Assembly: GCA_028684095.1 (NCBI GenBank)
Contig: JAQUGQ010000015.1
Span: forward strand, 1 to 33,970
Origin: Clostridia bacterium
GTDB lineage: Bacteria > Bacillota > Clostridia > TANB77 > CAG-465
Reading direction: 5' to 3'
Length of the DNA stretch: 33,970 nucleotides
The notes beneath the pieces were generated by a model that worked only from the letters and a program-made list of their open reading frames with translations, made no database searches and had not been told where the DNA came from. A program made the position numbers and the translations under genes. Shown here piece after piece: positions 9,133 through 32,570 of this stretch (its first letter is position 1; each line of letters opens with the position of its first letter).

Positions 9133-9240
9133 ATACAGTTTGTTATAATACAGTTATCCCCAAGGACGTGGGGACACCAGTGAAAACTTTTCAAATAAAC
9201 ATATTGTAAAAATCAAATTATAATGTTATAATGTTATTAG
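9133..9240 (+). repeat. Array repeat R1 with built-in promoter
   Basis: This is the first copy of the dispersed intergenic repeat. Two TACAGTT repeats (9134 and near 9149) are followed by ATCCCC, GACGTGGGGACAC and GAAAACTTTT, then a promoter (TTGTAA 9204-9209, 17-base spacer, TATAAT 9227-9232) that drives the HD gene. The gene-free stretch 9051-9268 holds only this element and AT-rich filler. Confidence 0.75.
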
Positions 9241-9268
9241 TATTAAATTAAAATTAAGGGGGATAAAA

Positions 9269-9940
9269 ATGTTAGAAAAATATATATCAATATTAAGACC
9301 AGAGGTTTTAGAGTTATTTAAAGAAGACTCAAGTGGACACGATATTACTCATTTAGAGCGTACTATGAATACAGCACTATTTATACAAAAGTATGAAAAA
9401 GGAGATAGAGTTATAGTAGGAATCTCGGCATTTTTACATGACATACATAGAATTATGCAAAATCAAAGCGGAAAATTTGTATCTCCAAAAGATTCTTTGA
9501 GTAAAGTAAAAGAAATATTGTCTTTAACAGATTTATCTGAAGAAAAGATCGAAAAAATATTGCATTGTATTGAATTTCATGAGGAATATAATTGGAATAA
9601 TCCTTTAAATAAAGAAAATGATATTAATACATTAATTTTACAGGATGCTGATAATTTAGATGCAATTGGAGCAATTGGGATAGGAAGGACATTTGTTTAT
9701 GGCGGAGCTCATGGAGTAGCAATGTATGATAATAGTGTTGGATTAGAAATGTCTGAAGATTATTCAGAAGAAAATGGAAATGATGAGTCAACAATACATC
9801 ATTTTTATCATAAACTTTTTAAATTAGGTGCTAATATGAATACCAATACAGCAAAAAAAATAGCAGAAAGAAAAACAGATTTTATGAAAGAATTTGTTAA
9901 TGAGTTTTTAACAGAATGGAATGTGGATTATCAATTATAA
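9269..9940 (+). CDS. HD-domain phosphohydrolase (YedJ-like)
   Basis: This 223-residue protein carries the HD metal-binding set: H24 and H28 in GHDITHLERT, H57-D58 in FLHDIHR, histidines in the EFHEEY region near 103, and D126/D128 in LQDADNLDAIG. The later GRTFVYGGAHG stretch is typical of the YedJ/uncharacterised HD hydrolase family. These are cytosolic metal-dependent phosphohydrolases of unknown substrate, probably nucleotides. It is alone in its module, with an AAGGGGG site and the promoter carried by the repeat upstream, and it is followed at once by the next repeat copy. Confidence 0.88.
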   Translation: MLEKYISILRPEVLELFKEDSSGHDITHLERTMNTALFIQKYEKGDRVIVGISAFLHDIHRIMQNQSGKFVSPKDSLSKVKEILSLTDLSEEKIEKILHCIEFHEEYNWNNPLNKENDINTLILQDADNLDAIGAIGIGRTFVYGGAHGVAMYDNSVGLEMSEDYSEENGNDESTIHHFYHKLFKLGANMNTNTAKKIAERKTDFMKEFVNEFLTEWNVDYQL

Positions 9941-9942
9941 AA

Positions 9943-10070
9943 AACACAGCTCGCAGGTTCAACTTTTCAACAAACCTTTATATATCAACATTGTATCTTT
10001 GTAAAAAGTTAAAAATACAGCTGTTTTACAGTTATCCCCATAGACGTGATGTACACTATGGAAATAAAGG
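9943..10070 (+). repeat. Array repeat R2 with tRNA-Pro T-arm fragment
   Basis: This copy begins with GCTCGCAGGTTCAA (9949-9962), which matches the 5' half of a tRNA T-arm. It is followed by a stretch (AACAAACCTTTATATATCAA) shared with copies at 13.87 and 32.47 kb. Then come TACAGCTGTTTTACAGTTA and ATCCCC with GACGTG. It separates the HD gene from the restriction-modification operon. 10071-10165 holds nothing I can identify. Confidence 0.75.
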
Positions 10071-10165
10071 AAAATAATCAAAGAGTATATTAAATCAAAG
10101 TAAAATTTATTATTATAAAAATTAAATGAAATTTAAACGGTTTAAGTATATTTTAAGAAAATATG

Positions 10166-10194
10166 TTGATTATATTTTAAATATATTATATAAT
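10166..10194 (+). promoter_or_regulatory. Promoter of the restriction-modification operon
   Basis: TTGATT (10166-10171), a 17-base spacer and TATAAT (10189-10194), 28 bases before the first methyltransferase ATG. Confidence 0.75.
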
Positions 10195-10221
10195 ACATAA
10201 GTGAAAAGGTAGAGGTGTAAT

Positions 10222-11301
10222 ATGTTAAAGGTTTTTGAAGCTTTTTCGGGTGTAGGTGCTCAAAAGATGGCACTTAGAAATTTAAACGTTGAACATGAAA
10301 TAATTGCTACTTCTGATATAGACCCTGTTGCAATAAAAGCATATGCTTACATACATGATCCAGAATATATGAGTAGTAGTTTAAATATAGATATTAATAT
10401 TGCAAAAAAATATTTAATTGATTTAAATATAATTTCTAATGAAAAAGTAGATAGAACTAAGAACAATGACATAATAGAATTGTATAAAGCCTGTATATGT
10501 TCTAAAAATTTAGGAGATATAACTAAAATAGATATAAATAATATACCAGACCATGATCTTTTTACTTATTCATTTCCATGTCAAGATATATCATCTGTAG
10601 GAAAACTAAAAGGGTTACAAGAAAATAGTGGGACTAGAAGTTCATTATTATGGGAGTGTAAGAGAATAATAGAAAGTAAAAAACCGAAATTTTTATTGTT
10701 AGAAAATGTACAAAACTTAGTAAGAGGTAAAAATAAAGATTCTTTTGAACAGTGGTTAGAATATTTAAATGATATAGGTTATAAAAATACGTGGAAAATT
10801 TTAGATAGCAAAAACTTTGGAATACCTCAAAGAAGGCAAAGAGTTTTTGTTGTTTCTAAATTAGAAGAAGAGAATTATTTAGAAATATTTAATAAAAAAA
10901 TTGAGATGAAAAGTATATATGATATTTTAGATAAGTCCAATGAAACTTATTATACTTATACTAATAAAATTGATGTTGATATAAATCATGGAGAATATAA
11001 GTTTTTTGATGATAGGGATTGGAAAATGAATGGAATAATAGTAAATGATATTTGTTCAACACAAAGAGCAGGAAGAAGCGGATTGAAATGTATTCGAAAT
11101 GAAAATGGAGAATTACAGGTTAGAAAATTGTCAGATTTAGAATGTTGGAGACTTATGGGATTTTCTGATGTTGACTACAATAATTTAAAAAAAGTTAATT
11201 TTCCATCTACAAGCATACTAAAACTATGTGGTAATTCGATAGTTGTAAATGTTTTAGAAGGTATATTTGAAAATATGTTAAAGGAGAATACATATGATTA
11301 A
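10222..11301 (+). CDS. DNA (cytosine-5) methyltransferase M1
   Basis: The 359-residue enzyme would transfer a methyl group from SAM to cytosine C5 within the system's recognition site. Motif I is FEAFSGVGAQ (residues 5-14), motif IV has the catalytic cysteine in SFPCQDIS near residue 120, motif VI is LLENV, motif VIII is PQRRQRVFVV, and motif X contains LCGNSIVVNVL near the end. All are intact. It overlaps the second methyltransferase by 8 bases. Two C5-methyltransferases with one endonuclease suggest an asymmetric recognition site, each enzyme protecting one strand. AGAGGTG precedes the start. Confidence 0.92.
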   Translation: MLKVFEAFSGVGAQKMALRNLNVEHEIIATSDIDPVAIKAYAYIHDPEYMSSSLNIDINIAKKYLIDLNIISNEKVDRTKNNDIIELYKACICSKNLGDITKIDINNIPDHDLFTYSFPCQDISSVGKLKGLQENSGTRSSLLWECKRIIESKKPKFLLLENVQNLVRGKNKDSFEQWLEYLNDIGYKNTWKILDSKNFGIPQRRQRVFVVSKLEEENYLEIFNKKIEMKSIYDILDKSNETYYTYTNKIDVDINHGEYKFFDDRDWKMNGIIVNDICSTQRAGRSGLKCIRNENGELQVRKLSDLECWRLMGFSDVDYNNLKKVNFPSTSILKLCGNSIVVNVLEGIFENMLKENTYD

Positions 11302-12392
11302 TGGGGTTTCGTTGTTTGCAAATGTAGGTATAGCAGAGATATATTTGAAGAAATGTGGAATAGATATAGTAGTTGCAAATGAATTAATAGAAAAAAGAGC
11401 AGAATTTTATAAAAATATTTATCCTGATTGCGAAATGATATGTGGAGATATAAATGATAAGATGAATGAGATTATATATAAGGCTAAAGAAAAAAAATGT
11501 AAATTTTTAATGGCTACACCTCCATGTCAGCGGAATGAGTGTGGCGGGTAAACGCGATTATAATGATCCGAGGAATTTGCTAATATTTAATGTTATAGAG
11601 GCAATTGAAAAAATAGACCCAGATTATGTTTTAATAGAAAATGTACCACAATTATTAAATATGAAAGTTAATTTAGATAATGAACATTTGACTGTTGAAG
11701 AGCTTATTTACAGAAAATTTTCTCACAAATATAATATTAATAGTAATAAAATAATAAATGCAGAAGAATATGGAGTTCCTCAGAATAGAAAAAGAGCAAT
11801 GATATTAATGAGTAAAAATTCAAAATGGGAATTTCCTAAAAAAGATAAAGTCAAAGTAACTGTAGAAGAAGCAATAGGTGAACTACCTACAGTAGAGGCA
11901 ATAATAAAAGAAAAAGAATATAATAAGTTTTTTAAGGATAATAAACAAAAAATAGAAGAATGTTTAAAAGTTCATAAATGGCACTTTCCTAAAGAGCATA
12001 CATGGAGACATGTTGAAATAATGATGCATACACCTACTGGAAAATCTGCTTTTGAGAATGATATTTATTTTCCTAAAAAGGAAAATGGAGAAAAAGTAAG
12101 AGGGTATAATACTACTTATAAGAGAATGCAATGGGACAGGCCTGCACCTACGATAACAATGGCAAATGGTTCTATATCGTCTCAATGCAATGTTCATCCA
12201 GGAAGAAAGAGAAAGGATGGAACTTATACTGATGCAAGGGCACTTACTATATATGAAATTATGAGACTGTTTACAATTCCAGATGATTGGAATATACCAG
12301 ATTGGGCTAATGATAATTTTATAAGACAGGTAATCGGTGAAGGAGTTCCACCATTATTAATAAAAAAAGTAGTAATAAATAGAGGTGATTAA
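11294..12392 (+). pseudogene. DNA (cytosine-5) methyltransferase M2, frameshifted
   Basis: The frame from 11294 encodes motif I (SLFANVGIAEIYL) and motif IV up to the catalytic TPPCQ (residues 76-80). It then breaks and stops at 11551. The frame from 11535 continues MSVAGKRDYNDP, motif VI LIENV, motif VIII PQNRKRAMILM and motif X IGEGVPPLL, ending at 12392. Removing C11531 would restore CAG-GGA-ATG, i.e. PCQGMSVAGK, and give a 365-residue enzyme. So there is a one-base insertion directly after the active-site motif: either a true mutation, a sequencing error, or possibly frameshifting at the rare CGG codon. An AAGGAGA site precedes the start. It overlaps M1 by 8 bases, and its stop overlaps the start region of the endonuclease. 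Confidence 0.85.
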
Positions 12393-12393
12393 T

Positions 12394-13833
12394 GTGTGGT
12401 TATTTCCACAACACTCAAGTAATATAGATCCGTTTTTTGAAACACTGCAAATATTTTCTGATTTGAATGGAATAAAAAAAGATGGAAGTATTCAACAAAA
12501 TTTCTTGAAAATAATGATAGAAAGAGGAATGTATAGTCCAAATACTATTCAGAGTTATGGATTTGATACTTCTACTGCAAATCATAAAATCGATGAAGTA
12601 AGATTTTATGGTGGGTTGTATGAAACTTCAGGTAGGAAAATACATATAAGTTCTTATGGAGAATTACTATTAAAATATAGAAAAGATGAATTGAAAAGAA
12701 ATAAAATTTTTCTATCAATGATTTTCAATATCCAATATCCAAATCCATATAAAAGGATTAAAGATGTTAATATTTATCCTGTAAGATTAATAATACAGTG
12801 TGCATTAGATAATCAACTAGACAAAAAAATATCTAATATTGAAATAGCACTTATATTATATAATATAGACAAAATTGAGACAAAACAAGAATATGAAAAA
12901 ATAGTAAATAAAATACTTGAATTCAGAGAAAAAAGCGATGAAGACAAGTTAATTATTTTAGAATCAAATGCTGAATGGTTTATAAAAAATTATGTAAATT
13001 GCAATTATTTTATGAACATATTAGAAAATATGCATATTAGCAATAATAACGAGAGAACACCTTTAGGAATGGTAAAATCATCAGATAGAAAAGATTCTAC
13101 AAAAATATCTAAAAAAGAAATATCTATCAACAAGAATATGTATGAATTTATTCAAAAATCCTTGGAAATCCATACAATATATGATGTTGTTAAAACAAAT
13201 GAAACATTAAAAGATGATTGGATACGTAATATATACAATGATTTAGATGAAAGTTTATTATTAGAAATAGGAGAACAAACAAAAATAATTGATTATATGG
13301 AAATACCAGAAATGTTGTTGTACACAGCGACACATAGTGATCGTTGGGATGAGTTTGAAGAATATATTACTAGAACTTTTGATATGTTTGATGATGTAAT
13401 AGCACATAGAATAAGTGGACCATCAGAACCAGATATGCTAGCATCGTATAATTATGGGGAAACTGTTTTTGTTGCTGATGCGAAATCACGAGGTAAGACA
13501 CTTTTTGAAATAAATGATGGAAGATTGTCGCAACATAGAGAAAAATATAAAGCAAAATATACACTGGTAATTACACCTAAATATAGGCCTAGTGCATTAA
13601 CAGACATAAGAGGAAGAAATACATGTATAATAACGTCTTATTGTTTAGTAGATTTAATTACAAAATATATATTTAAGGCATATAAAGATAGAAAAGAGTG
13701 TAGTTATAGAGCAATAAATGAAATGATTCTTAATAATTTAGGTAAAGATGTAAGTGCTAATATATATTCTTTAATTGATGAGAATTATGGTGTAAGCATT
13801 AAAGAATTGAAATTTAATTGTAATATTGATTAA
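12394..13833 (+). CDS. Type IIS-like restriction endonuclease (AlwI family)
   Basis: This 479-residue protein resembles the AlwI family of restriction enzymes. Its N-terminus begins WLFPQHSSN, a FYGGLYETSGRKIHIS segment follows, and IQYPNPY comes near residue 112. The nuclease centre is a PD-(D/E)xK variant, E345-P346-D347 followed by VADAK (D362, K364). It would cut DNA at a site protected by the two upstream methyltransferases. I prefer GTG 12394 with AGAGGTG upstream; GTG 12385 is in frame but overlaps that site. An intact nuclease beside a frameshifted methyltransferase is unexpected and would be toxic unless M1 alone protects or the frameshift is not real. Confidence 0.75.
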   Translation: MWLFPQHSSNIDPFFETLQIFSDLNGIKKDGSIQQNFLKIMIERGMYSPNTIQSYGFDTSTANHKIDEVRFYGGLYETSGRKIHISSYGELLLKYRKDELKRNKIFLSMIFNIQYPNPYKRIKDVNIYPVRLIIQCALDNQLDKKISNIEIALILYNIDKIETKQEYEKIVNKILEFREKSDEDKLIILESNAEWFIKNYVNCNYFMNILENMHISNNNERTPLGMVKSSDRKDSTKISKKEISINKNMYEFIQKSLEIHTIYDVVKTNETLKDDWIRNIYNDLDESLLLEIGEQTKIIDYMEIPEMLLYTATHSDRWDEFEEYITRTFDMFDDVIAHRISGPSEPDMLASYNYGETVFVADAKSRGKTLFEINDGRLSQHREKYKAKYTLVITPKYRPSALTDIRGRNTCIITSYCLVDLITKYIFKAYKDRKECSYRAINEMILNNLGKDVSANIYSLIDENYGVSIKELKFNCNID

Positions 13834-13840
13834 TTAAAAA

Positions 13841-13925
13841 TGAACTTGCAACCATTTGGGTTGCAGGTTCAACTTTTCAACAAACCTTTATATATCAACA
13901 TTTTATCTTTTAAAAAAGTTGAAAA
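13841..13925 (+). repeat. Array repeat R3: hairpin plus tRNA T-arm fragment
   Basis: TGAACTTGCAACC (13841-13853) and GGTTGCAGGTTCA (13859-13871) form a 13-base hairpin. Its right arm is tRNA-Pro T-arm sequence. It directly follows the endonuclease stop and may act as terminator. The following ~50 bases closely match R2 (TTTTCAACAAACCTTTATAT and on), but the ACAGTTAC repeats are missing here. Confidence 0.7.
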
Positions 13926-14084
13926 ATATGCTATACTATTGAAGTAGTAAGATTAGAACAAGAAAGCAAGTAATAATTATATGAATTAATCTATAAGCAA
14001 CAAATTATAGCAACGATGTAATGTAAAATTGATAGTAAAAAACGAATAAAAATGATATTATTATATCAGAGGAGGGGAAACTAG

Positions 14085-14552
14085 ATGGATGAAAATAACT
14101 TGAGTGATAATATTTCTATTTTAAGAAAACAAAATAATATGTCACAGGAAGTATTAGCAGAAAAATTAAATGTATCAAGGCAGGCAGTTTCTAATTGGGA
14201 AACAAATAAAACACAGCCAGATATATCTACATTAACAAGAATGGGAGTTATTTTTGGGAAAAATATTGATAATATTGTTAGGGGGGATTTTTCAATGACA
14301 TTAGATAATAAAAAAGAACAAGTAGACAATTACAAAGTATATTACGATAAATATGCTGTTGCAACAGGTTTATTCTGGGCGATTTCTACATTTTTATCAA
14401 TAGGAATTTTTACTATTGTAGGAATTATATATAATTCATCAAAGGTATGGATCATAGCAGGGATAAGCGGTTTGTGTACATTTTTGAGTTTTGGACTTAT
14501 AATGCAAGCAATAATGACATTAAAAAGAAAAGAAGCAGATAAACAAGAATAA
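14085..14552 (+). CDS. XRE-family regulator with C-terminal membrane helices
   Basis: This 155-residue protein starts with an HTH_3 domain (residues 7-62: ISILRKQNNMSQEVLAEKLN, then SRQAVSNWE as recognition helix). A linker and two hydrophobic helices follow, near 93-113 and 120-142. Membrane-tethered XRE regulators of this type are common in clostridia and often control small adjacent operons. No partner gene lies beside it here; it is alone between a repeat copy and an IS3 remnant. AGGAGGGG precedes the start. Its target and signal are unknown. Confidence 0.85.
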   Translation: MDENNLSDNISILRKQNNMSQEVLAEKLNVSRQAVSNWETNKTQPDISTLTRMGVIFGKNIDNIVRGDFSMTLDNKKEQVDNYKVYYDKYAVATGLFWAISTFLSIGIFTIVGIIYNSSKVWIIAGISGLCTFLSFGLIMQAIMTLKRKEADKQE

Positions 14553-14700: not shown

Positions 14701-14787
14701 AAAATAAAAAAATAGATCAAAGCATGAGATTATTAGATAGTCAAACAAAATTAGGTATATCTAGAGCCTAGAACACTTTGGAAGTAA

Positions 14788-14890
14788 AACAGTTACACAG
14801 GGGGAAATAAGAGACGTGGGTGATATTGGGGGAGAAATTTTTAGATACATATGTTGTAAAAACTAAATTATAGTGTTATAATATTATTAA
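14788..14890 (+). repeat. Array repeat R4 with built-in promoter
   Basis: ACAGTTAC, CAGGGGG, AGACGTGGG and a GGGGAGAAATTTTTA stretch match the other copies in order. The promoter that follows (TTGTAA 14854-14859, 17 bases, TATAAT 14877-14882) is nearly identical to that of R1 and R10. The next 190 bases before the UvrA-like gene hold nothing I recognise. Confidence 0.7.
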
Positions 14891-15081: not shown

Positions 15082-17319
15082 ATGAACATAAAGATATTAG
15101 GAGCAAGAGAAAATAATTTAAAAAACATCAATTTAGAATTAGAAAAACATAAAGTAATAGTTGTATCAGGAGTTTCAGGTAGCGGAAAATCTTCATTAGT
15201 ATTTGATGTTATATATGCTATGGGACAGACATCTTTTTATGATACTTTATCTACTTATGTAGTTAAAAATCTTCCTAAAATAAATAAACCAGATGTAGAT
15301 GAAATAAGTAATCTATCACCATGTGTTATGATTGATCAAAAATCATTGGGTCAAAACCCTAGGTCTACAGTAGGTACAGTTACAGAAATATATAGCTATT
15401 TAAGATTGCTATACTCAAGAGTAGGATACCCTATTATGGATAGTGAGTATTTTTCATTTAATACATCAAAGGGTGTATGCCAAAAATGTGGTGGATTAGG
15501 AACAGAGTTGATACCTGATTTAAATAAATTAATTGACTTTGATAAATCATTGAATGAGGGTGCAGTAAGACATAGAACATGGGCAGTGCAATCAAGATAT
15601 TGGAATATACAGAAAGCTATAAATTATTTTGATATAAATAAAAAACTAAAAGACTATAATGATGATGAAATTAATATGTTATTATATTCAAAGCCTTTTC
15701 AGTATCAAAATAAATCAACTGGTTTCGTACAGAGTTTCTCATACGAAGGTATTATAAATAGAATAGTAAAAAGACAAAAAGATGCACGAGGATTAGATAT
15801 AAATGATTATGATGAAAAGTTCTTTACTACTCAAAAGTGCTCAGAATGCGAAGGTTCTAGATTAAATAAAATGGCAAGAGATGTATTGGTAAATAAAAAA
15901 AGTTTAATAGAACTGTTAAATATGGAGATAAATGAATTATATAGTTTTGTAAATAGTATTGAAGGTGAGATTGCTTTACCTATAATTGATAGGATGAAAA
16001 TAGACATGAAAAATATAATTGAAATGGGTATAGGATATTTAACATTAAATAGAGGTATAAATACATTGTCAAATGGCGAATCTCAGAAGATAAAGATAGT
16101 TAAGCATTTGAGGGGAAACTTAAACGAACTTATATATATAATGGACGAGCCTAGTATTGGCTTACATCATAGGGATATAAAAAAAATCATTGAAGCTATT
16201 AAAGAATTAGTGAGTAAAGAAAACACTGTTTTAATAGTTGAACATAATAGGACGATAATAGAATCAGCAGATTGCATTGTGGATATTGGACCTTTATCAG
16301 GAGAAAGTGGAGGAGAAATAATATTTGTTGGAAATGTAGAAGACATAATTCATAATGATAAATCTATAACTGGGAAATGCTTAAGACAGAGGCATAAGAT
16401 TAATATTAATAATAAATATATTAAAGACTGGTATGAAGTGAATAATATAAATGTAAATAATATACAAAATTTAAATGTTAAAATACCTAAAAATATATTA
16501 ACATGTATTACTGGTGTATCAGGTAGCGGAAAATCTTCTTTAATAAAGTACATAGCAGATATCGATGATAAAGTTATAAAGATTGGAGGAGAGCCTATAG
16601 GAATTAGTTCTAGAAGTAATCCTGCAACTTATTCAGGTGTATTTGATTTGATAAGAAAAGAGTTTGCAAATACAAATAATATAGATGTGGGAGTATTTAG
16701 TTTTAACTCAAAAGGAGCATGCGATAATTGTAGAGGACTAGGGTATAAGGTTATGGATATGCATTTCTTAGGCGATATCAAACAAACTTGTGATGTATGT
16801 CATGGAAAAAGATATAAGGATGAGGTGCTTATGTATTTATATAAAGACAAAAATATTAGTGATGTACTAGATATGACTGTAAGCTCAGCAGTAATTTTTT
16901 TTGATAATAAAGGAATAGTGGATAAATTATCGATAATTAACGATGTTGGTTTGGGATACTTAAAATTAGGACAATCTTTTAACACATTGTCGGGTGGAGA
17001 AATACAGAGAGTTAACATGGCGAGTTATCTTAGCAAAAAAGGTAATATATATATAATGGATGAACCAACTAATGGATTACATTTAAATGATATAAATGTT
17101 TTATTAGGGGTAATAAATAAACTTATAGATAGAGGTAATACAGTTATAGCAATAGAGCATAATCTTGATTTTATAATTAATGCCGACTATATAATAGACA
17201 TGGGACCAGAAGGTGGAAAAAATGGAGGTAAAATTATGTTTGAAGGCAATTTGAAAAACATACTAAATGAACAAAGTTTCACGGCAAGTGCTATAAGAGA
17301 ATATGTAAATGTGAAATAA
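15082..17319 (+). CDS. UvrA-like (DrrC/UvrA2-type) ABC ATPase
   Basis: At 745 residues it is about 200 shorter than canonical UvrA and seems to lack the UvrB-binding region, as in DrrC and other short UvrA-like proteins linked to resistance against DNA-binding drugs. Two ABC halves are visible. Half 1 has Walker A GVSGSGKSS (30-38), CxxC pairs CQKC near 133 and CSEC near 253, and signature LSNGES near 330. Half 2 has Walker A near 478, CDNC and CDVC near 547 and 570, signature LSGGEIQRV near 636 and Walker B YIMDEPTNGLH. The first signature carries N for G. It probably acts as a DNA-bound ATPase. AGGGAGG lies unusually far (about 13 bases) from the ATG. Confidence 0.88.
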   Translation: MNIKILGARENNLKNINLELEKHKVIVVSGVSGSGKSSLVFDVIYAMGQTSFYDTLSTYVVKNLPKINKPDVDEISNLSPCVMIDQKSLGQNPRSTVGTVTEIYSYLRLLYSRVGYPIMDSEYFSFNTSKGVCQKCGGLGTELIPDLNKLIDFDKSLNEGAVRHRTWAVQSRYWNIQKAINYFDINKKLKDYNDDEINMLLYSKPFQYQNKSTGFVQSFSYEGIINRIVKRQKDARGLDINDYDEKFFTTQKCSECEGSRLNKMARDVLVNKKSLIELLNMEINELYSFVNSIEGEIALPIIDRMKIDMKNIIEMGIGYLTLNRGINTLSNGESQKIKIVKHLRGNLNELIYIMDEPSIGLHHRDIKKIIEAIKELVSKENTVLIVEHNRTIIESADCIVDIGPLSGESGGEIIFVGNVEDIIHNDKSITGKCLRQRHKININNKYIKDWYEVNNINVNNIQNLNVKIPKNILTCITGVSGSGKSSLIKYIADIDDKVIKIGGEPIGISSRSNPATYSGVFDLIRKEFANTNNIDVGVFSFNSKGACDNCRGLGYKVMDMHFLGDIKQTCDVCHGKRYKDEVLMYLYKDKNISDVLDMTVSSAVIFFDNKGIVDKLSIINDVGLGYLKLGQSFNTLSGGEIQRVNMASYLSKKGNIYIMDEPTNGLHLNDINVLLGVINKLIDRGNTVIAIEHNLDFIINADYIIDMGPEGGKNGGKIMFEGNLKNILNEQSFTASAIREYVNVK

Positions 17320-17350: not shown

Positions 17351-17494
17351 TACTGTATTACAGTTACCCAGATGGAAATATAGAACTGTATAGAAAACTT
17401 TCTACACAATATACATAAAAAATAGCATGATAACAACCAATTAATGGTTATATATCATGCTTTAAATTTGTCTAATATGGTCCGGAGTGACTGG
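17351..17494 (+). repeat. Array repeat R5 with terminator and tRNA 3'-end fragment
   Basis: TACAGTTACCC, ATGGAAATATAGAACTGTAT and GAAAACTTTC are followed by a hairpin (AGCATGATA near 17416 pairing with TATCATGCT near 17452). Then comes TGGTCCGGAGTGACTGG (17478-17494), a decayed antisense copy of a tRNA 3' end. The order repeat-hairpin-tRNA is the same as in R6. The gap continues to 17688 with AT-rich filler and a promoter. Confidence 0.75.
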
Positions 17495-17688: not shown

Positions 17689-18255
17689 ATGTTTGATAGA
17701 ATAGTTGTGGATAAAATTCAAAATGAAATTGAAATAAGAAGTAAAAGTCCTGATAACTTTTATGGTATAGGGGTTTATTACCATATAAAAGCGGTAGAAA
17801 AAAGTGCTATATATTTAGCAAAAATATATGGAGCAGATATTGAAATAGTTCAATTAGCAGCACTATTACATGACATTGCATCTATTACTAAAAAAGAATA
17901 CACAGAAAAACATCATATATATGGAGCAGAAATTGCAGAGAAATTATTGAAAGAATTAAATTATCCAATAGAAAAAATAGAATTAATAAAAAAATGCATA
18001 TTGAATCATAGAGGTAGTGTATTAGTGGAAAAAACTACTAAAGAGGAAATATGTGTAGCTGATGCAGATGCAATGGCACATTTTGATATGTTACCAGCAT
18101 TATTTAATATGGTATATAGACAAATGGAACTTTCAATAGATGAAGGAGCAAAATATTTAAAAAATAAATTAACGAGAAGTTATAATAAATTAACTAATGA
18201 AACTAAAGAATTATATGCAGAAAAAATTAAAAGTGTAATGAGTATATTTGAATAG
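17689..18255 (+). CDS. HD-domain hydrolase
   Basis: This 188-residue cytosolic protein is a single HD domain. Likely metal ligands are H32 (YYHIKAVEKSA), H61-D62 (LLHDIASITKK), H75/H76 (EKHHIYGAEIAE), H107 (LNHRGS) and D125/D127 (VADADAMAHF). The pattern fits nucleotide or phosphomonoester hydrolases of the HD superfamily; the substrate is unknown. It is unrelated in detail to the HD proteins at 9.3 and 32.6 kb, yet occupies the same kind of single-gene module behind a repeat copy. TAGGAGA precedes the start. Confidence 0.87.
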   Translation: MFDRIVVDKIQNEIEIRSKSPDNFYGIGVYYHIKAVEKSAIYLAKIYGADIEIVQLAALLHDIASITKKEYTEKHHIYGAEIAEKLLKELNYPIEKIELIKKCILNHRGSVLVEKTTKEEICVADADAMAHFDMLPALFNMVYRQMELSIDEGAKYLKNKLTRSYNKLTNETKELYAEKIKSVMSIFE

Positions 18256-22278: not shown

Positions 22279-22394
22279 AACAAACAATAAAATACAAATA
22301 TTATAAGATAAAGAGTTTTAAATACGGAGCAAAAAATTGGTAACTATATATTTTTCAGGAACAGATAACACAAAACAAATAGTGTTATAAATGT

Positions 22395-22510
22395 ATTTAA
22401 ATAGCTGTTTTAAGCTATTTAAATTCTACTAAAAAAGAAATTACAGTTACAATACAATTACCCAGGTGGAAACTGTGGAAATATAGAACTGTATGGAAAA
22501 CTTATTGTAT
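22395..22510 (+). repeat. Array repeat R6
   Basis: A 12-base perfect hairpin (ATTTAAATAGCT 22395-22406 with AGCTATTTAAAT 22413-22424) leads into TTCTACTAAAA. Then come TTACAGTTACAATACAATTACCC, interrupted direct repeats, and GGAAATATAGAACTGTATGG with AAAACTT. This arrangement is shared with R5, R7 and R9. It is followed by a hairpin and a tRNA fragment rather than a gene. Confidence 0.78.
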
Positions 22511-22584: not shown

Positions 22585-22623
22585 TGGTCGGAGTGACAGG
22601 ACTTGAACCTGCAACCCCATGGG
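22585..22623 (-). pseudogene. tRNA-Pro 3'-end fragment (antisense)
   Basis: Read on the minus strand the sequence gives GGGGTTGCAGGTTCAAGTCC and then TGTCACTCCGACCA: a variable loop, complete T-arm, 3' acceptor strand CACTCCG, discriminator A and CCA. The acceptor sequence fits a proline tRNA. D-arm, 5' acceptor strand and most of the anticodon arm are absent, so this is not a functional tRNA. It has the look of an attachment-site remnant left by an element that integrates in the 3' end of the tRNA gene. Confidence 0.8.
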
Positions 22624-22639
22624 CTGAAAAGTATAAAAA

Positions 22640-22790
22640 AATTGATAGTGCTACAAATGGCTTGAAATAGGTGTTTGTAACTATTTTAATTTTACTAAAA
22701 GTACAGTTTTACAGTTGTTTTACAGTTACCCCTATAGACGTGGTAGACACAGTGGAAAACTTCTAGTAAAAACTAAACAGATTATGTAAA
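22640..22790 (+). repeat. Array repeat R7
   Basis: GTGCTACAAATGGCTTGAAA and a weakened AATAGC hairpin are followed by TTTTACTAAAAG. Three repeats then follow (TACAGTT, TACAGTTG, TACAGTTACCCC), with GACGTGG, GACACAGTGGAAAACTT and a TAGTAAAAACTAAA stretch. It heads the pilin-FGE module. Between R6 and R7 no gene is present, only the hairpin and the tRNA fragment. Confidence 0.78.
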
Positions 22791-22987: not shown

Positions 22988-24292
22988 ATGAAAAAGAAAA
23001 ACGGAATATCTTTAATAGTGTTAGTAATAACAATAATAGTTATAATAATACTAGCAGGAGCAGTGATTTTAAGTTTAGCAAATAATAATCCAATAGAACA
23101 AGCAAATGAAGCATTATTTAAAACAAATGTAGATGAATATAATTCAGAGCTTACTCTGGCTATATCCAATCAATATTTGCAGGATCAATCATTTGATCCA
23201 ACTATATTTGATAAAGAGGTATGGAATGGTGGAACTATAGGAGAAACAATAAAAAAATATATACCAAGTATAACAGTAGCAGATGGATTAAAATTTGAAA
23301 TACAAGATAGTAAGTTGGTATATGTAGGAACAAATGAAACAGAACAAGAATGGTTTACAAGTATGAGTATGACAAGTGAAGAAGAAACAGGACTTGGATT
23401 AGATGTAATAGCAACAGATAATATAACATTTAATGGAGAGGCAGCTGCATATAATAATCCGATAATACCAAAAGGATTTAAAGCAATAAATACAACTGAT
23501 GCAAGTTGGGTTAATCTAAGTACAGATTGGAATACTGGTTTAGTAATAGAAGATACTAGTGGAAATCAATTTGTATGGGTACCAGTAGATGGAACAAATG
23601 TGCCATATGCAAAGTGGTGTACAACTAATATTGCATGGAATCATGCAGATATATCTGATGATACTGTAGTAGGAGTAACTAATGAAGCAGCTCAAGTTAC
23701 AAAGTACGGTGGATTCTATATAGCAAGATATGAAGCAATGTTTGACTTTAATGGTGGAGCTTTAAGAGTAGCAAGTAAACCATCTACAAATAAAACAACT
23801 ACAGACTGGAGAGCAACAAGAACGGAAGCATATAACGGATACTTATGGAACTATATAAATTACACAGATGCTAAATCATATGCAGAAAACATGGATACAC
23901 ATTATGCATATGATACATCTAAAGTAATAACAACATTAGTATCTGGAACTCAGTGGGATACAGTTTTAAAATGGATCCAAAATTCAGGTAAAAGTGTAAT
24001 AGATAGTAGAACTTGGGGAAATTACAGTGATTCAATATTTCCAGCAAACGTAGCAGGATTTGCAAGTTTACAAATATCTGGATTCAGTGAAAACTGGAAA
24101 GCAAATAACATATATAATATAGCTGGAAACACATTAAAATGGACAAGTGAAATATATAGCTCTAGCCGTGTCTTTCGTGGAGGCAGTTTCTTTCATAGTG
24201 GCAGTAGCGGTCCTGCTGCTTACCGCAGCTACGATCCAGTTACGAATGTCCGCAACAATCTAGCCTTCCGTCCCAGTCTTTATATATTGTAG
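22988..24292 (+). CDS. Prepilin-like protein with C-terminal FGE/C-lectin variable domain (DGR target)
   Basis: This 434-residue protein starts like a type IV prepilin: KKKNG then ISLIVLVITIIVIIILAG, with the G-I processing site at residues 6-7 but V instead of the usual E5. A ~110-residue pilin-like region follows, then an FGE/C-type-lectin domain (FVWVPVDG near 197, GGFYIARYEAM near 239, LKWTSEIYSSS near 379). The last ~45 residues (SRVFRGGSFFHSGSSGPAAY to FRPSLYIL) look like a DGR variable region. The DNA there is clearly GC-richer, with AGC, TAC, GAT and AAC codons where template adenines would be mutated. It is probably a surface pilus tip or adhesin. No reverse transcriptase or template repeat is nearby. 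AAGGAG precedes the start. Confidence 0.85.
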   Translation: MKKKNGISLIVLVITIIVIIILAGAVILSLANNNPIEQANEALFKTNVDEYNSELTLAISNQYLQDQSFDPTIFDKEVWNGGTIGETIKKYIPSITVADGLKFEIQDSKLVYVGTNETEQEWFTSMSMTSEEETGLGLDVIATDNITFNGEAAAYNNPIIPKGFKAINTTDASWVNLSTDWNTGLVIEDTSGNQFVWVPVDGTNVPYAKWCTTNIAWNHADISDDTVVGVTNEAAQVTKYGGFYIARYEAMFDFNGGALRVASKPSTNKTTTDWRATRTEAYNGYLWNYINYTDAKSYAENMDTHYAYDTSKVITTLVSGTQWDTVLKWIQNSGKSVIDSRTWGNYSDSIFPANVAGFASLQISGFSENWKANNIYNIAGNTLKWTSEIYSSSRVFRGGSFFHSGSSGPAAYRSYDPVTNVRNNLAFRPSLYIL

Positions 24293-24300
24293 CACTGACC
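24150..24300 (+). repeat. Candidate DGR variable region and flanking 3' element
   Basis: The GC-rich 3' end of the pilin-FGE gene stands out in the AT-rich background. It ends with CTTTATATATTGTAGCACTG, where TAG is the stop. GTAGCACTGAC recurs at the equivalent place of the minus-strand FGE gene (18988-18998). A matching template repeat was not seen in this window. Confidence 0.6.
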
Positions 24301-24392
24301 ACTGAAAATACACTGGCAAGGGCACAATAGTAATTTGAGTAGAGATAGAATAAATATGTAACAAATCAAGATAAAATAATAGAATGGACGGG

Positions 24393-24541
24393 TTTCAAAT
24401 AAAGTAACGCTTCATGTGAAGCCCGCATAGAAATTTTTTGGTAGTATGCCAAAAAAATTCTAGCGGGATACCCCTAGCGGGATACCCCTAGCGGGATACC
24501 CCTAGCGGGGTAGCTAACGGTAATTTTTTTACCGTAGCTAC
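24393..24541 (+). repeat. Structured region with 14-bp tandem repeats
   Basis: Three tandem copies of TAGCGGGATACCCC (24461-24474, 24475-24488, 24489-24502) are followed by a partial TAGCGGGG. They lie between an AATTTTTTGG/CCAAAAAAATT hairpin (24432-24459) and a GTAGCTAACGGTA/TACCGTAGCTAC hairpin (24510-24541). A GCTTCA/TGAAGC stem and CGGGTTTC/GAAGCCCG pairing lie just before (24390-24426). The block sits between the DGR-type gene and the RsgA-like gene. It could be terminator structure, DGR target structure or a regulatory leader. Confidence 0.7.
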
Positions 24542-24635
24542 TTCGAGAGAGAGGATTTTTTATAAAAATATTATAAAAAAATTTAATTTCTTGTTAATTA
24601 GATAAATCAAACTAAATTAATAGGGGGATATGAAG

Positions 24636-25679
24636 ATGAATATAAAAAAATATGGATTTAAAGACAGTTTGGTTAAAAGTAAAACAAATGAAATACCAGC
24701 TAGAATAATAACAACTTATAGAGATAGGTATGAAATAATATGTGATAAAGGAAAAGGATTTGCAAAATTAAAAACTGGAAGTTATTATAATAATCCTAAT
24801 TCAATTTATCCAACAATAGGGGATTTTGTTTTAATAGATTGGAATGATAATGGTGATAGCAGAATAATAGAAACATTAAAAAGAGAAAGTTCTTTTTCAA
24901 GAGTTGATCCATCATCAGATAGACAACATGAGCAACTTATTGCTGCTAATTTTGATTATGTGTTTATTATGCAGTCATTAAATAGTAACTATAATTTGCA
25001 GAGAATAGAGAGATATTTAACTCTTAGCTGGCAATCAGGAGCTATACCTGTAATTATACTTACAAAATGTGATTTAGTAGAAAATTATGAAAAATATTTA
25101 TTAGAAGTAGAAAGTATAGCAATAGGTGTAAATGTATATGCAATAAGTTGTAAAACAGGATATGGTATTGAAAATTTGAAAAGGTATTTTAAACAAGGGA
25201 ACACTCTTGTGTTTTTAGGTTCTTCAGGAGTTGGAAAATCAACTTTAGTAAATACTTTAATTGGTACAAAAATTATGCAGACAAGTGAAATTAGAGAGGA
25301 TGATTCAAGAGGCAGACATACTACAACTAATAGACAATTGATTATGTTACCGAATGGAACAATGATTATAGATACTCCTGGTATGAGAGAACTTGGTATG
25401 TGGGATGTTTCAGAAGGACTTGATAAAACTTTTCAAGATGTAGAAAAACACCTAGGGAAATGTAAATTTTCAGATTGTTCACATATTAATGAGCTAGGAT
25501 GTAGAATATTGGAAGCTATTGAACAAGGAGAATTATCAAGGGATAGATTTAGTTCATATATGAAATTAAGAAATGAAGCTAAATATAATAATGATAGTGA
25601 AAATTATTTAAAAGAAAAAAATAAAAAGTTTAAAGAAATTTCAAAATATAATAAAAATAATAAAACAAACAAAAACTAG
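24636..25679 (+). CDS. rsgA: RsgA-family ribosome-associated GTPase
   Basis: This circularly permuted GTPase of about 347 residues assists maturation of the 30S subunit. An N-terminal OB-fold part (about 18-85) is followed by G4 TKCDL (143-147), G5 AISCKTG, G1 GSSGVGKST (195-203), the switch region RGRHTT, G3 DTPGM (246-250), and the C-terminal zinc knuckle C276, C281, H283, C289. All motifs are intact and the length is typical. The start at 24636 suits AGGGGGAT; ATG 24630 is too close to it. It lies in an accessory array, so it may be a second copy beside a core rsgA, which cannot be judged here. Confidence 0.9.
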   Translation: MNIKKYGFKDSLVKSKTNEIPARIITTYRDRYEIICDKGKGFAKLKTGSYYNNPNSIYPTIGDFVLIDWNDNGDSRIIETLKRESSFSRVDPSSDRQHEQLIAANFDYVFIMQSLNSNYNLQRIERYLTLSWQSGAIPVIILTKCDLVENYEKYLLEVESIAIGVNVYAISCKTGYGIENLKRYFKQGNTLVFLGSSGVGKSTLVNTLIGTKIMQTSEIREDDSRGRHTTTNRQLIMLPNGTMIIDTPGMRELGMWDVSEGLDKTFQDVEKHLGKCKFSDCSHINELGCRILEAIEQGELSRDRFSSYMKLRNEAKYNNDSENYLKEKNKKFKEISKYNKNNKTNKN

Positions 25680-25846
25680 TATTATTTATATAAATTAAGA
25701 GGATATAAATGATGTATAATACTAATTTGCTTTTTATAATAAATTTGTGGTTTGTGACAAAGTGGTAGCAGGTTTAATAATATTATAATACTTTTAAAGT
25801 ATTGATATTACTAAATTTGCAACTTTTTATTTATAGGTATTTGAAA

Positions 25847-25863
25847 GTTACATTACAGTAACT
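25847..25863 (+). repeat. Degenerate array repeat
   Basis: AGTTACATTACAGTAAC keeps paired AGTTAC-like repeats but lacks the other boxes. The gap 25680-25987 otherwise holds AT-rich filler and the promoter of the next gene. Confidence 0.35.
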
Positions 25864-26743: not shown

Positions 26744-26925
26744 TATAATATAATTAGTTAGAAATAATGTGCTAATATGAAAAAACTACAATTAAACGAT
26801 AGGGAATCAGGAATATTGCATCCAGTGTTGAAAGCTCTTGTTTTATAAATATAGAGAATCCTAAAAGATGCAACAAGATACCCACCTTAAAAAAAGGTTT
26901 TTGTCGTTATAGCCATTATATCTAA
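26744..26925 (+). ncRNA. Candidate structured RNA, loosely 6S-like
   Basis: A promoter (TTTACT 26721-26726, 17 bases, TATAAT 26744-26749) precedes a stretch with no gene. Long-range pairings are visible: AACGA (near 26795) with TCGTT (near 26905), AGGG with ACCC, and TTGCATC (26816-26822) with GATGCAA (26867-26873) around an AT-rich apical region with CTCT/AGAG. The 3' side holds ACCTTAAAAAAAGGT, a local hairpin. A long interrupted stem with a small 3' hairpin resembles 6S RNA, but the length is short and no diagnostic sequence is certain. It also might just be the terminator area of the convergent membrane gene. Confidence 0.35.
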
Positions 26926-27834: not shown

Positions 27835-28047
27835 ATGAAAAAAGAAAAAAATAAATTTATGGGAGTTTGCAAAGTTGGAGAAAAAGGTCAAATCGTAATT
27901 CCAAAAGAAGCAAGAGATATGTTTTCAATAGCACCAGGAGATACTGTAGTTGTGTTATGTGACAAAAAAAGAGGAATGGCAATTGTTAAGGCAGATTTTT
28001 TTGAAGGGATTACTGAAAATATTTTCGGAAAAGGGAGTGATAAATAA
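27835..28047 (+). CDS. AbrB/SpoVT-type swapped-hairpin regulator
   Basis: This 70-residue protein has the AbrB DNA-binding domain: GVCKVGEKGQIVIPKEARDM (about 10-29), then FSIAPGDTVVVLCDKKRGMAIVK. Such dimers bind AT-rich promoter DNA. Its stop overlaps the ATG of the ABC ATPase (TAATG), so it is the first gene of a three-gene exporter operon and probably regulates that operon itself. AAGGAAGG precedes the start. Confidence 0.9.
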   Translation: MKKEKNKFMGVCKVGEKGQIVIPKEARDMFSIAPGDTVVVLCDKKRGMAIVKADFFEGITENIFGKGSDK

Positions 28048-28781: not shown

Positions 28782-29496
28782 TTTTGCAAAGAGGAATATT
28801 AAAGAATTAATACGAGATCCGTTAAGTATAATATTTGCAATTATATTACCTTTATTTTTGCTTGTTATATTTCAACAATTTAAGATACCAAGTGATGTAT
28901 ATAAAATTGAAAATTTTACTCCTGGAATTATAATATTTAGTTTTTCATTTATAACACTATTTACTGCTACATTAGTTGCAAATGATAGAAATTCATCATT
29001 ATTAACAAGATTATTTTCGAGCCCTATGAAACCAATGGATTATATATTTGGATATACCTTAGCAGTATTGCCAATAGTTATACTTCAAAGTATATTATTT
29101 TATACAGTGGCGTTATTTTTTGGATTAAGCTTTAGCGTTAATATTATCTTATCAATAATAGTTGCAATTCCAATTTCAATACTTTTTATTGCATTAGGAA
29201 TAATAATAGGAACTATTACCACAGCGAAAGCATCAAGTGGAGTAGGAAGTATAATTGTTCAATTAGTTGCTTTTACTAGTGGTATGTATTTTTCAAGCGA
29301 TATGATTGGAAAAACATTTAATAGTATTTGTAAAATATTACCGTTTTCTAGGGTGCTTGATTTAGTTAAAGGTGTTTTAAATAGTGATTATACAAATGTG
29401 ATTTCTAATGTTATAATTTCAACAACTTATATAATTATGGTTACGATAATTGCAATAATATTGTTTAAAAATAAAATGAATAGTGATAATAAATAG
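28768..29496 (+). CDS. ABC-2 type permease (DrrB-like)
   Basis: This 242-residue membrane protein has about six helices. It begins with the usual N-terminal NFAKRNIKELIRDPLSIIF, and a SSLLTRLFSSPMKP loop follows the second helix, both typical of ABC-2 exporters. The ATG at 28768 has AGGAGGTGAT at the right distance; an in-frame GTG at 28759 overlaps that site. It is the third gene of the abrB-ATPase-permease operon. Confidence 0.9.
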   Translation: MKAINFAKRNIKELIRDPLSIIFAIILPLFLLVIFQQFKIPSDVYKIENFTPGIIIFSFSFITLFTATLVANDRNSSLLTRLFSSPMKPMDYIFGYTLAVLPIVILQSILFYTVALFFGLSFSVNIILSIIVAIPISILFIALGIIIGTITTAKASSGVGSIIVQLVAFTSGMYFSSDMIGKTFNSICKILPFSRVLDLVKGVLNSDYTNVISNVIISTTYIIMVTIIAIILFKNKMNSDNK

Positions 29497-29540: not shown

Positions 29541-29710
29541 GGAGTGACAGGACTTGATGAGAATTACTGGAAAATTTATAGTGCTGCAAATGGCTTAATA
29601 TAGCTGTTTGTGGCTATTTTAATTCTACTAAAATAAAAAATTACAGTTATAATACAGTTACCTCCAGGGACGTGGGGCATGCTAGGGAAAACTTTATAAA
29701 ACGAGAGATA
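29541..29710 (+). repeat. Array repeat R9 with tRNA 3'-end fragment
   Basis: GGAGTGACAGGACTTGA (29541-29557) is an antisense tRNA-Pro 3'-end fragment. GTGCTGCAAATGGCTTAATA, a TAGC..GCTA hairpin and TTCTACTAAAAT follow, the same order as in R7. TTACAGTTATAATACAGTTA, CCTCCAGG, GACGTGGGGCATG and GGGAAAACTTT complete the unit. The gap 29497-29827 contains this repeat and a promoter-like TATAAT near 29791. Confidence 0.8.
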
Positions 29711-31153: not shown

Positions 31154-31265
31154 CACAGTTTTAAAACAGTTACCCAGGGGGAAACAGAGGAAAAGAGGGA
31201 CATCAGGGAAAACTTTTTAAATTAATACATTGAAAAAATTAGAATATAGTGTTATAATATTAGTA
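31154..31265 (+). repeat. Array repeat R10 with built-in promoter
   Basis: CACAGTTTTAAAACAGTTAC, CCAGGGGGAAACAGAGG, GGGACATCAGGGAAAACTTT and a promoter (TTGAAA 31230-31235, 17 bases, TATAAT 31253-31258). The spacer ends ATATAGTGT, as in R4 (TTATAGTGT) and nearly as in R1 (TTATAATGT). Confidence 0.78.
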
Positions 31266-31324
31266 ATATAAGTGAAGAAGATTAAGTTTGCATTATAAGA
31301 TGAAATAGTTAGGAGATAAAAGGC

Positions 31325-31989
31325 ATGATAAATTATTTAATACAAGAAATATCAAAACTAAATGATCATGGATATTTCGATTATTTTGCATATATAATAA
31401 TACCGGTACTCGTCATGATACTTAATATATGGGCTGTTAATATAAATACTAACAGACAAATTAAAAATCAGAATAAAGAGACATATAAACCAAGGTTGAA
31501 ATTATTAAATTTCCAAACAGTACAGCATTTCGATAATGAGTTAGTTTTAATGCAATTTGTAGAAATGTAAAAGGAGATTCGAATAGTTATTATATAAAAA
31601 CTAAAATGAAACTAAAAAATATAGGAAATGGAATAGCACAAGATATTTCTTTTTATACATTACAGAATGGAGAGTATTGCTATAGATCAATGACCAATGA
31701 AGAGAGTAAAAGCCAAAAAAGTTTTTGTACTGAAGAAATTTCTAAAAACTAAACTGGAAAATTTAACATAAATATAATATATAACTTGTTAGAGCATAAC
31801 GAGGAAAACCTTGAAAATGGAGATATTTGTGATATGATACAAAAAGATGTTATAGTAGATACATATTATTATCAAGAAGGAACAAAAGCTTTTAATAATA
31901 TGGTAAATAAGAAGTATTATAAAAAAATTATAAAAATATATTACAAAAAATCATATGAGTATTTTAGAAAAAATGTAAAGGAGATATAA
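31325..31989 (+). pseudogene. Broken single-helix membrane protein gene
   Basis: The gene starts MINYLIQEISKLNDHGYFDY with one membrane helix (about 21-38) and a good AGGAGAT site. The frame is lost near 31555. The adjacent frame continues RNVKGDSNSYYIKTKMKLKN with an immunoglobulin-like NIGNGIAQDISFYTL strand pattern, meets an in-frame TAA at 31750 (SKN-stop-TGKF), then carries on to KKSYEYFRKNVKEI and stops at 31989. So one frameshift and one nonsense change disable an original ~220-residue protein. Function unknown. Confidence 0.7.
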
Positions 31990-31990
31990 G

Positions 31991-32401
31991 ATGGAAGAAA
32001 CTTTTGAATTTTTAAAAAACACAACAAAAGTAAATTTTGTTGCTACTATAAATGGTGATGCACCAAGCAACAGACCTTTTGGAGATCCAGTATTATTTGA
32101 AAATAAAATATATGTATTAACAAATAAAAAAAAGCAAGTATCTAAACAAATAAAATTAAATAATAAAGTTTGTATAGTTGCTTATGATGCAGAAAATGAA
32201 AACTGGATAAGAATAAATTGTGAACTAATAGATGATAGTAATAATATATCGGCAAAACAGGCAATTATAGATGAATTTGATTGGGCTGAAGAAGCAGGCT
32301 ATACATTAGATAATCCAAATTTTCAAGCATTATATATAGCAAATGCTGATGTAAAAATATACAATATTGATGGAAATGTACTAAATTCATACACATTTTG
32401 A
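31991..32401 (+). CDS. Pyridoxamine 5'-phosphate oxidase-like flavoprotein
   Basis: This 136-residue protein has the split-barrel FMN-binding fold of PPOX/general stress protein 26-like proteins: FVATINGDAPSNRPFGDPV (about 16-34), then IYVLTNKKKQVSKQIKLNN (38-57) and VCIVAYDAENENWIRINCEL (58-77). Family members bind flavin and act in redox chemistry, sometimes in nitroimidazole reduction. Its precise substrate is unknown. AAAGGAGAT precedes the ATG. It follows the broken membrane gene by 1 base, so they once formed an operon. Confidence 0.85.
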   Translation: MEETFEFLKNTTKVNFVATINGDAPSNRPFGDPVLFENKIYVLTNKKKQVSKQIKLNNKVCIVAYDAENENWIRINCELIDDSNNISAKQAIIDEFDWAEEAGYTLDNPNFQALYIANADVKIYNIDGNVLNSYTF

Positions 32402-32436
32402 ATATAATAGTTAATTGCTTTTTATAACAATTAAAC

Positions 32437-32467
32437 TGTGGTTTGGGACACATTGCTCGCAGGTTCA
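32437..32467 (+). pseudogene. tRNA-Pro(UGG) anticodon/T-arm fragment
   Basis: TGTGGTTTGGGACACA carries the proline anticodon loop TTTGGGA (anticodon TGG), with one C apparently lost from the 3' stem. CTCGCAGGTTCA, the 5' part of the T-arm, follows. The rest of the tRNA is replaced by array sequence. This identifies the tRNA behind the array fragments as tRNA-Pro(UGG). Confidence 0.75.
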
Positions 32468-32570
32468 TAACTTTAACAAACCTTTATATATAAACATTCT
32501 ATCATTTGAAAAGACTAAAAATACAGTTGTTTGACAGTTACAATATAGTTACCCGGATGGAAATGACAGT
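32456..32570 (+). repeat. Array repeat R11
   Basis: From the tRNA fragment the sequence runs AACAAACCTTTATATATAAA, as in R2 and R3. Next come TACAGTTGTTTGACAGTTAC, a third degenerate repeat ATAGTTACCC, and GGATGGAAATGACAG. It heads the SpoT-like HD/kinase operon, whose TATAAT is near 32598. Confidence 0.75.

Follow-up and report, generated by a model that had tools for sequence, protein, structure and literature searches.

Tyrosine integrases bind arm-type and core-type sites, and the tRNA gene into which they insert is rebuilt on insertion. Among described systems, CIMEs and tandem accretion resemble the array reported here in keeping attL and attR without integrase or transfer genes and in standing in tandem at one site (PMC5704250), and the Dehalococcoides ssrA genomic islands resemble it as tandem islands bounded by copies of the 3' end of an RNA gene; 15 of the 31 ssrA islands are without an integration module, and the islands involve a serine recombinase and a 20-bp repeat at ssrA (PMC3146451). 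Additive flexible genomic islands, e.g., at tRNA-Lys in Methylopumilus, share with the array the recurrent copies of a tRNA end before variable cargo, and tycheposons are likewise tRNA-anchored cargo elements with a tyrosine recombinase (PMC10872708); these likenesses refer to the sections of the three papers considered here.

The window, i.e., the whole stretch of DNA analyzed, is the entire contig C16 (33,970 bp) of an uncultured Clostridia-like genome (G000; 1.46 Mb, 38 contigs). We consider it probable (roughly 0.64) that elements without an integrase accreted here in tandem at tRNA-Pro(UGG), that a helper related to the integrase on contig C96 of genome G002 acted on them in trans, and that the array is now partly decayed.

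Modules and repeated ends in the window

A reading of the sequence alone (the sequence-only reading) had placed a chain of modules between 9133 and 32570. The modules are present, but module content continues beyond 32570 to the contig end, as listed here (A, right end; B, left end):

9135..9190, +: leftmost end copy, arms plus GACGTGGGG and GTGAAAACTT, without tRNA core; a truncated HPRT-like ORF starts 85 bp away
9269..9940, +: cargo, HD-domain phosphohydrolase (Pfam PF01966, 2.6e-7)
9944..10064, +: module 3' end fused to an arm/GACGTG copy at 10016, with a truncated tRNA-Pro-like box (9950-9961) and AACAAACCTTTATATATC (alignments, profile)
10222..13833, +: cargo, type II restriction enzyme (PADLOC REase_II, 6e-44) and two C5 cytosine methyltransferases (PF00145), the second of which is broken into two frames (11294-12392)
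13850..13944, +: module 3' end, truncated box at 13854-13871, arms not recognizable (alignments)
14085..14552, +: cargo, HTH_3 protein (Pfam PF01381, 7.8e-14), its C-terminal half hydrophobic-looking by eye
14783..14839, +: end copy with GGGGGAAA insert and GACGTGGG box (profile)
15082..17319, +: cargo, UvrA-like protein of 745 aa (NCBIfam TIGR00630, 6e-224; 746.2 bits, cut-off 729.8)
17353..17494, +: right end (A), arms, hairpin (17424-17461) and truncated tRNA-Pro 3' core at 17477 (alignments, profile)
17689..18255, +: cargo, HD-domain protein (Pfam PF01966, 2.2e-15)
22359..22503, +: hybrid end, B-type lead fused to A-type arms (alignments)
22585..22622, -: tRNA-Pro(UGG) 3' end (core), identical to the host tRNA over 33 bases
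22625..22762, +: left end (B), lead, ACAGTT arms, GACGTGG and GGAAAACTT (alignments, profile)
22988..25679, +: cargo, pilin-like protein (assigned by eye; no Pfam match) and RsgA GTPase (PF03193, 2.1e-51)
25751..25860, +: module 3' end, tRNA-Pro-like box at 25751-25774, arms decayed or not recognizable (alignments, pattern)
26786..26897, +: 6S RNA (34.3 bits, below the family cut-off of 46.4)
29541..29695, +: truncated tRNA-Pro core (29541-29557), left end (B) and arms (alignments, profile)
31154..31216, +: end copy with GGGGGAAAC insert (profile)
32439..32570, +: module 3' end, class II right end, tRNA-Pro-like box at 32442-32465, arms at 32523 and 32534, then CCCGGATGGAAATGACAGTTT (alignments, pattern, profile)
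32629..33847, +: cargo near the contig end, HD_4 hydrolase and a protein weakly matching dTMP kinase (29 bits; cut-off 83)

The functions of the modules are indeed unrelated, as had been claimed: R-M, HD hydrolases, UvrA-like protein, RsgA and others were assigned by Pfam, NCBIfam and PADLOC.

A 56-position profile, built from eight of the nine window copies and four copies outside the window, finds nine copies of the repeat in the window, all on the + strand and all between genes, starting at 9135, 10016, 14783, 17353, 22441, 22709, 29641, 31154 and 32533. None of the nine overlaps an ORF, though only 24% of the stretch from 9.0 to 34.0 kb is intergenic, and they lie 59-485 bp upstream of the next ORF. 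The motif ACAGTTAY occurs 12 times on the + strand and once on the - strand of the window, compared with means of 1.6 and 1.4, respectively, in 200 dinucleotide shuffles (maximum on the + strand, 6); two of the + occurrences (15376, 17140) are inside the UvrA-like gene and outside any repeat copy. The same-orientation intergenic repeat of the sequence-only reading is thus real and far above chance, with nine clear copies by profile. Of the three weak copies also proposed, at least two were found (13850-13944 and 25751-25860), both being module 3' ends, and the statement that a copy heads most modules holds insofar as copies are present at module edges, but they occur in two settings, before and after a tRNA core. 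Across the genome, the exact pattern TACAGTTAYC-(6-16)-GACGTG is found in five places, of which four lie in the window and the fifth close to the end of contig C28 (its reversed control has no match in the genome), and the profile gives 11 matches, eight on C16 and three in the last 4.4 kb of C28, the ninth window copy passing in a separate profile search outside these 11. The repeat is therefore confined to cargo edges on C16 and at the end of C28 rather than spread genome-wide; at E<=1, no Rfam family matches it.

The arms are paired ACAGTTAC direct repeats at a spacing of 11 bp, with conserved boxes, and displaced 3' ends of tRNA-Pro(UGG) accompany arms and boxes. The left (B) end reads core, a lead of ~80 nt, paired ACAGTTAC arms, then the GACGTGG and GGAAAACT boxes, and the right (A) end reads paired arms, hairpin, core; elements run from core to core, so that a right end, a core and the next left end make up an A-core-B junction. 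The window has one complete junction of this kind (22436-22775), and a second is on C28 (182.64-182.97 kb). The remaining window copies are fused or incomplete, and every window junction except one is without an intact core: the tRNA fragments at 17477 and 29541 are truncated, and the copies at 9135, 14783 and 31154 consist of arms only. The tRNA fragment noticed beside the direct repeats is genuine, 22585-22622 agreeing with the host tRNA-Pro at 33 of 33 positions of the test stretch, and the paired arms together with the tRNA-Pro 3' cores bear out the proposed arm and core anatomy of a tyrosine recombinase. From its composition, the repeat appears to be the terminal attachment apparatus of integrative elements, comprising arm-type sites and tRNA cores. 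The hybrid end at 22359-22503 is read as an element that may have been emptied by recombination between its own ends.

Module 3' ends also contain a sense tRNA-Pro-like box, extending from the anticodon stem-loop to the T-loop, ~75 nt upstream of the arms. A pattern locates it at C16:25751, C16:32442, C28:178962 and, in genome G006, C26:103544, with truncated versions at 9950 and 13854, in the orientation opposite to that of the tRNA cores; changes within the box leave its stem intact, as judged by eye (CAATGTG..CACATTG, TTTG..CAAA). The 6S RNA is the sole match in the genome, a piece of backbone sitting among modules, and its order with its neighbor is swapped relative to G001, a genome of the same genus. 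The HPRT-like remnant has no Pfam match, its intact counterpart in G001 being a phosphoribosyltransferase. Simple stacking at one tRNA does not explain this lone 6S RNA and HPRT-like remnant among the modules.

Complete elements at tRNA-Pro and occurrence in relatives

No tRNA gene lies in the window; the tRNA-Pro(UGG) gene is on C28, which probably adjoins C16, because contig C5 of G001 carries markers of both. A complete element of ~4.1 kb with the same layout is present on C28, with tRNA-Pro(UGG) at L006:8646-8721 and a second 3' core, identical to tRNA-Pro at 33 of 33 positions, ending at 12812. The order there is arms and hairpin before the tRNA 3' end, element, arms, second core, and the arms of the next element; the A and B arms lie inside the element, and its cargo is an NgoPII-type restriction enzyme, a C5 methyltransferase and AIPR. 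In G041, a genome of a different family, a single element of 12.7 kb with the same two ends occupies tRNA-Pro (C40:17515-30205). Both of its cores have the sequence of G041's own tRNA, which differs from that of G000 at 5 of 33 positions, and its cargo, with long intact ORFs, includes type I R-M (HsdR, HsdS and HsdM by Pfam) and a PDC-S18 protein; none of the ORFs of the element encodes an integrase. The C28 and G041 elements both have an intact tRNA at one end and a displaced tRNA 3' fragment at the other, and both (n=2, both ends intact) keep attL and attR without integration and transfer genes, the latter judged from Pfam matches of the scanned ORFs and from reading the G041 ORFs. Comparison of end regions gave identities of 64-81% for 10 G041-G000 pairs and 56-82% for 19 pairs within G000; since the G000 copies are no more alike than copies across two families, they are not recent local duplicates.

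Among 385 genomes of the order, 29 have a profile match at E<=0.01, and the match is credible in four (G000, G001, G006 and G041), where the copies are located on the tRNA-Pro contig or on the inferred neighbor of that contig. Each of the other 25 genomes had one weak match (G158 two); the loci checked, one per genome (L100-L124), were judged to be due to chance, 24 of the 25 being in open frames of at least 118 aa. Among 391 genomes of the class, G000 alone passes E<=5e-4; the order and class searches used stricter filters, which may lose weak matches. G001 shares the C28 backbone at ~82% up to the tRNA 3' end and, beyond it, only small markers, i.e., synteny stops at the tRNA 3' end and the content at the same tRNA-Pro differs between relatives. 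At their tRNA-Pro sites, G001 and G006 have elements with integrases and different repeats, and their copies of the array repeat are farther from the tRNA (G001 C5:67247; G006 C26:103637 and 105556). Homologues of the cargo DNA (query 9100-29099, 20,000 of 24,871 bases) were found in 245 of the 385 genomes at E<=1e-20, among the matches listed mostly 65-83% identical and scattered.

A related integrase family and the search for a helper

Integrase domains are present in all of the 10 relatives searched, and G000 has six PF00589 matches (two on C2, one on C4, two on C7 and one on C21), with none on C16 or C28. A tblastn search of the array with 78 integrase queries, some of them duplicated, gave one match at E<=0.01 (E=0.003, inside an SbcD gene; next best 0.025). 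Thus, neither PF00589 nor tblastn revealed a convincing integrase or relic in the array, in agreement with the earlier claim that the modules are without an integrase.

In G002, which belongs to the genus of the window, a 407-aa integrase (PF00589) on contig C96 ends inside GTACAGTTATAGGTACAGTTAT, ~120-140 bp before tRNA-Gln, and this autonomous element uses ACAGTTAT at its integrase end. Autonomous members of this tyrosine-integrase family end with the integrase stop, paired repeats, a hairpin and a tRNA 3' end, which is the anatomy that the right ends of the array seem to have, with cargo in place of the integrase. Relatives of the G002 integrase occur in 200 of 385 genomes at E<=1e-30. Direct repeats of 6 nt or more, spaced 10-14 bp (observed, 11 or 12) and lying within -20 to +60 of the integrase stop, were found at 16 of 29 family loci (the best 30 of the family, one of which had no open integrase frame), compared with 107 of 1000 random 80-bp windows; by the same test, they were absent at 13 of the 29. 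At other family ends, a hairpin and then a tRNA 3' end come after TTGCATTA or TTGTTGTA pairs. TTGCATTA pairs occur in 49 places in 39 of 297 genomes, and 30 of the 49 were examined with an integrase query set that overlapped these loci in part: in 16, the flank contains an integrase match, which ends within 22 nt of the pair in 11 cases, and 14 have no integrase match within the examined flank. Three of these 14 sites (L246, L252 and L256) directly adjoin a tRNA 3' end and lack an upstream integrase; L234 has a tRNA in the flank in a different arrangement. In G015, G031 and G034, family members with other repeats lie ~0.4 kb from tRNA-Pro, and in G024 one lies ~1.4 kb away from it; the member in G000, on C2, is split over two frames and adjoins a DpnII-type R-M set.

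The proposed integrase with a matching attachment site was found in part: the end of the G002 element shares the arm octamer with the array, but not the flanking boxes, its site is tRNA-Gln, and the scans of genome_contigs, viral_contigs, plasmids and phages yielded no tRNA-Pro helper with ACAGTTAC arms. Among the loci compared, apart from the array and L126, L127, L129 and L132, the ACAGTT pair occurs in G002 only. The pattern scan of genome_contigs yielded six stretches, of which L128 is G006, L130 and L131 are G041, and L126, L127 and L129 were judged to be chance after reading around the match; the single viral_contigs stretch from three patterns (L132) was judged unrelated. The G002 integrase protein has no match in viral_contigs, blastn against plasmids and phages returned just short matches within the tRNA part of the query, and the recombinase stretches of G000 (C7, C2:1-10000, C21:14000-26000) and of G041 (C49) contain no ACAGTT pair. 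Because 48 distinct family ends were inspected, the likelihood that a heptamer pair matched once by chance should not be neglected; we put it roughly at a few per cent.

Origin of the array and relation to known systems

We suggest that the repeats represent the two ends of elements that insert into the tRNA-Pro(UGG) gene at its 3' end, and that each element consists of a B end, one to several cargo genes and an A end, with no integrase. A tyrosine integrase, coming in trans from a helper akin to the G002-C96 integrase, would bind the arms, and strand exchange would take place inside the 3' half of the tRNA; each insertion would rebuild the tRNA and displace the elements that had presumably arrived earlier, giving a stack of one orientation. 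Neither a circular form nor an empty site nor a strain pair turned up, which counts against this reading. It is possible, though in our view unlikely, that the modules were instead once islands with integrases of their own, deleted after insertion, with no mobilization in trans now, i.e., decayed accretion of the CIME type. Tandem accretion and integrase-less islands have been described, in the sections considered of PMC5704250 and PMC3146451, and most junctions here are partial or fused; because this applies to all but one of the window junctions, the successive decayed integrations that the sequence-only reading named as its alternative hold in part. The 14 of 30 TTGCATTA arm sites without an integrase match in the flank, three of them beside a tRNA 3' end, and the split family member next to the DpnII-type R-M set on C2 point the same way, but the array has no convincing integrase relic, and cargo stops where autonomous relatives have the integrase stop, 34 bp from the arms in the window (17319 to 17353) and ~21 bp in the G041 element (L051:7689 to 7667), whose long intact ORFs likewise argue against decay.

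Common operator or promoter sites would agree with the single orientation of the copies 59-485 bp ahead of the next ORF, but copies also stand after the last gene, by a hairpin and a tRNA 3' end, the tRNA cores are duplicated with the element, and there is no match elsewhere in the genome, so that a regulatory role as the explanation is very improbable. Equally slight are the chances of an integron or integron-like array with folded single-strand sites, which the small cargo in one orientation and the single-stranded folds of one junction strand (z -3.05) and of the class II end (z -2.82; 0 of 100 shuffles each) might suggest: the other junction strand reaches only z -1.75, and much of the fold is due to terminator-type hairpins. 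In its strict sense, the term integron-like could not be upheld, because tRNA 3' ends form the cores and the array showed no attC-type site. As a more tentative extension of tandem accretion with a helper in trans, which we regard as doubtful when taken as a whole, the array might belong to a cassette system that parallels integrons but is based on phage-type tyrosine-integrase sites, and in which cargo-only modules (~1 to 13 kb, several with R-M) circulate between families and gather at tRNA-Pro, borrow a helper integrase via the paired arms, and use the inverted tRNA-Pro-like box as a further recombination core. If modules do move without their own integrase, defence and other genes would spread as bare cargo sitting between an arm pair and a tRNA core, and integrase-first surveys would miss them; the repeat pair at a fixed spacing of 11-12 bp by the integrase stop is a simple signature by which orphan islands in other genomes can be matched to helper integrases.

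No closer described system was found in the literature searched, which took in few of the subscription journals. Pfam scans of 20 window and 3 C28 ORFs (small ORFs left out) gave none of the int, replication and packaging families of PICI-like phage satellites. tRNA-integrated genomic islands carry an integrase, whereas none was found in the array or in the C28 and G041 elements, and tycheposons carry their recombinase beside the tRNA (PMC10872708, in the sections considered), whereas the elements of the array carry none. The additive islands have recurrent tRNA-end copies, but a conserved structure of arms and boxes like that of the array is not described in those sections of PMC10872708. In contrast to the serine recombinase and 20-bp repeat of the ssrA islands, the array has tRNA-Pro and paired arm-type sites of a tyrosine-integrase pattern. 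Compared with CIMEs as presented in the sections considered of PMC5704250, it differs in its many small cargo-only modules, its uniform ends, the lack of convincing integrase relics, and the same ends on unrelated cargo in two families. Accretion and CIME-type elements are already known; what is new here is uniform ends on cargo-only modules common to two families.

tRNA-Pro-like boxes ahead of the arms

Boxes resembling tRNA-Pro stand ahead of the paired arms at six sites, all in sense orientation:
Window 9950-9961, tRNA-Pro-like box
Window 13854-13871, tRNA-Pro-like box
Window 25751-25774, tRNA-Pro-like box
Window 32442-32465, tRNA-Pro-like box
L006 8963-8986 (contig C28 of the same genome, G000), tRNA-Pro-like box
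L046 7544-7567 (contig C26 of G006, another genome of the order), tRNA-Pro-like box

The arms follow about 75 nt downstream of the box, which is inverted relative to the cores (the displaced tRNA-Pro 3' ends), and the stem of the box appears to have been kept through paired changes.

Genes within and beside the array

Window 8790-9050, truncated HPRT-like ORF, directly left of the first repeat
Window 22988-24292, pilin-like gene, identified by eye
Window 24460-24509, short CTAGCGGGATACCC tandem repeat, 3' of the pilin-like gene

In G001, a genome of the same genus, the counterpart of the HPRT-like ORF is intact (173 aa). A 6S RNA and the remnant of its neighbour gene sit amid the modules (window 26494-26933), and their order is swapped relative to G001 (L049 6289-7173). 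The C-terminus of the pilin-like gene looks FGE-like by eye, and related stretches form a row on G000 C2:52546-56165. The kilobase around the gene at window 18910-19851 (-) is clearly higher in GC (39%); Pfam and NCBIfam gave no match for this gene.

Recombinase loci and similar repeats elsewhere

On G000 C2, a tyrosine integrase split into two frames adjoins a DpnII-type restriction-modification set (L014 4536-9546), possibly another decayed island. On G000 C7, a tandem pair of differing tyrosine recombinases adjoins a uvrB-like gene (L013 8126-10604), a locus from which array-type arms are absent. An IMG/VR viral contig carries about nine 11-bp ACAGTTA/ACAGCTA units head-to-tail (L132 3660-3760), for which no connection to the array was seen. 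In G209, a related genome, two TTGCATTA arm pairs lie 819 bp apart upstream of tRNA-Gln, without an integrase (L256, C16:12706-13543); this locus may be a miniature element of the type found in the array.
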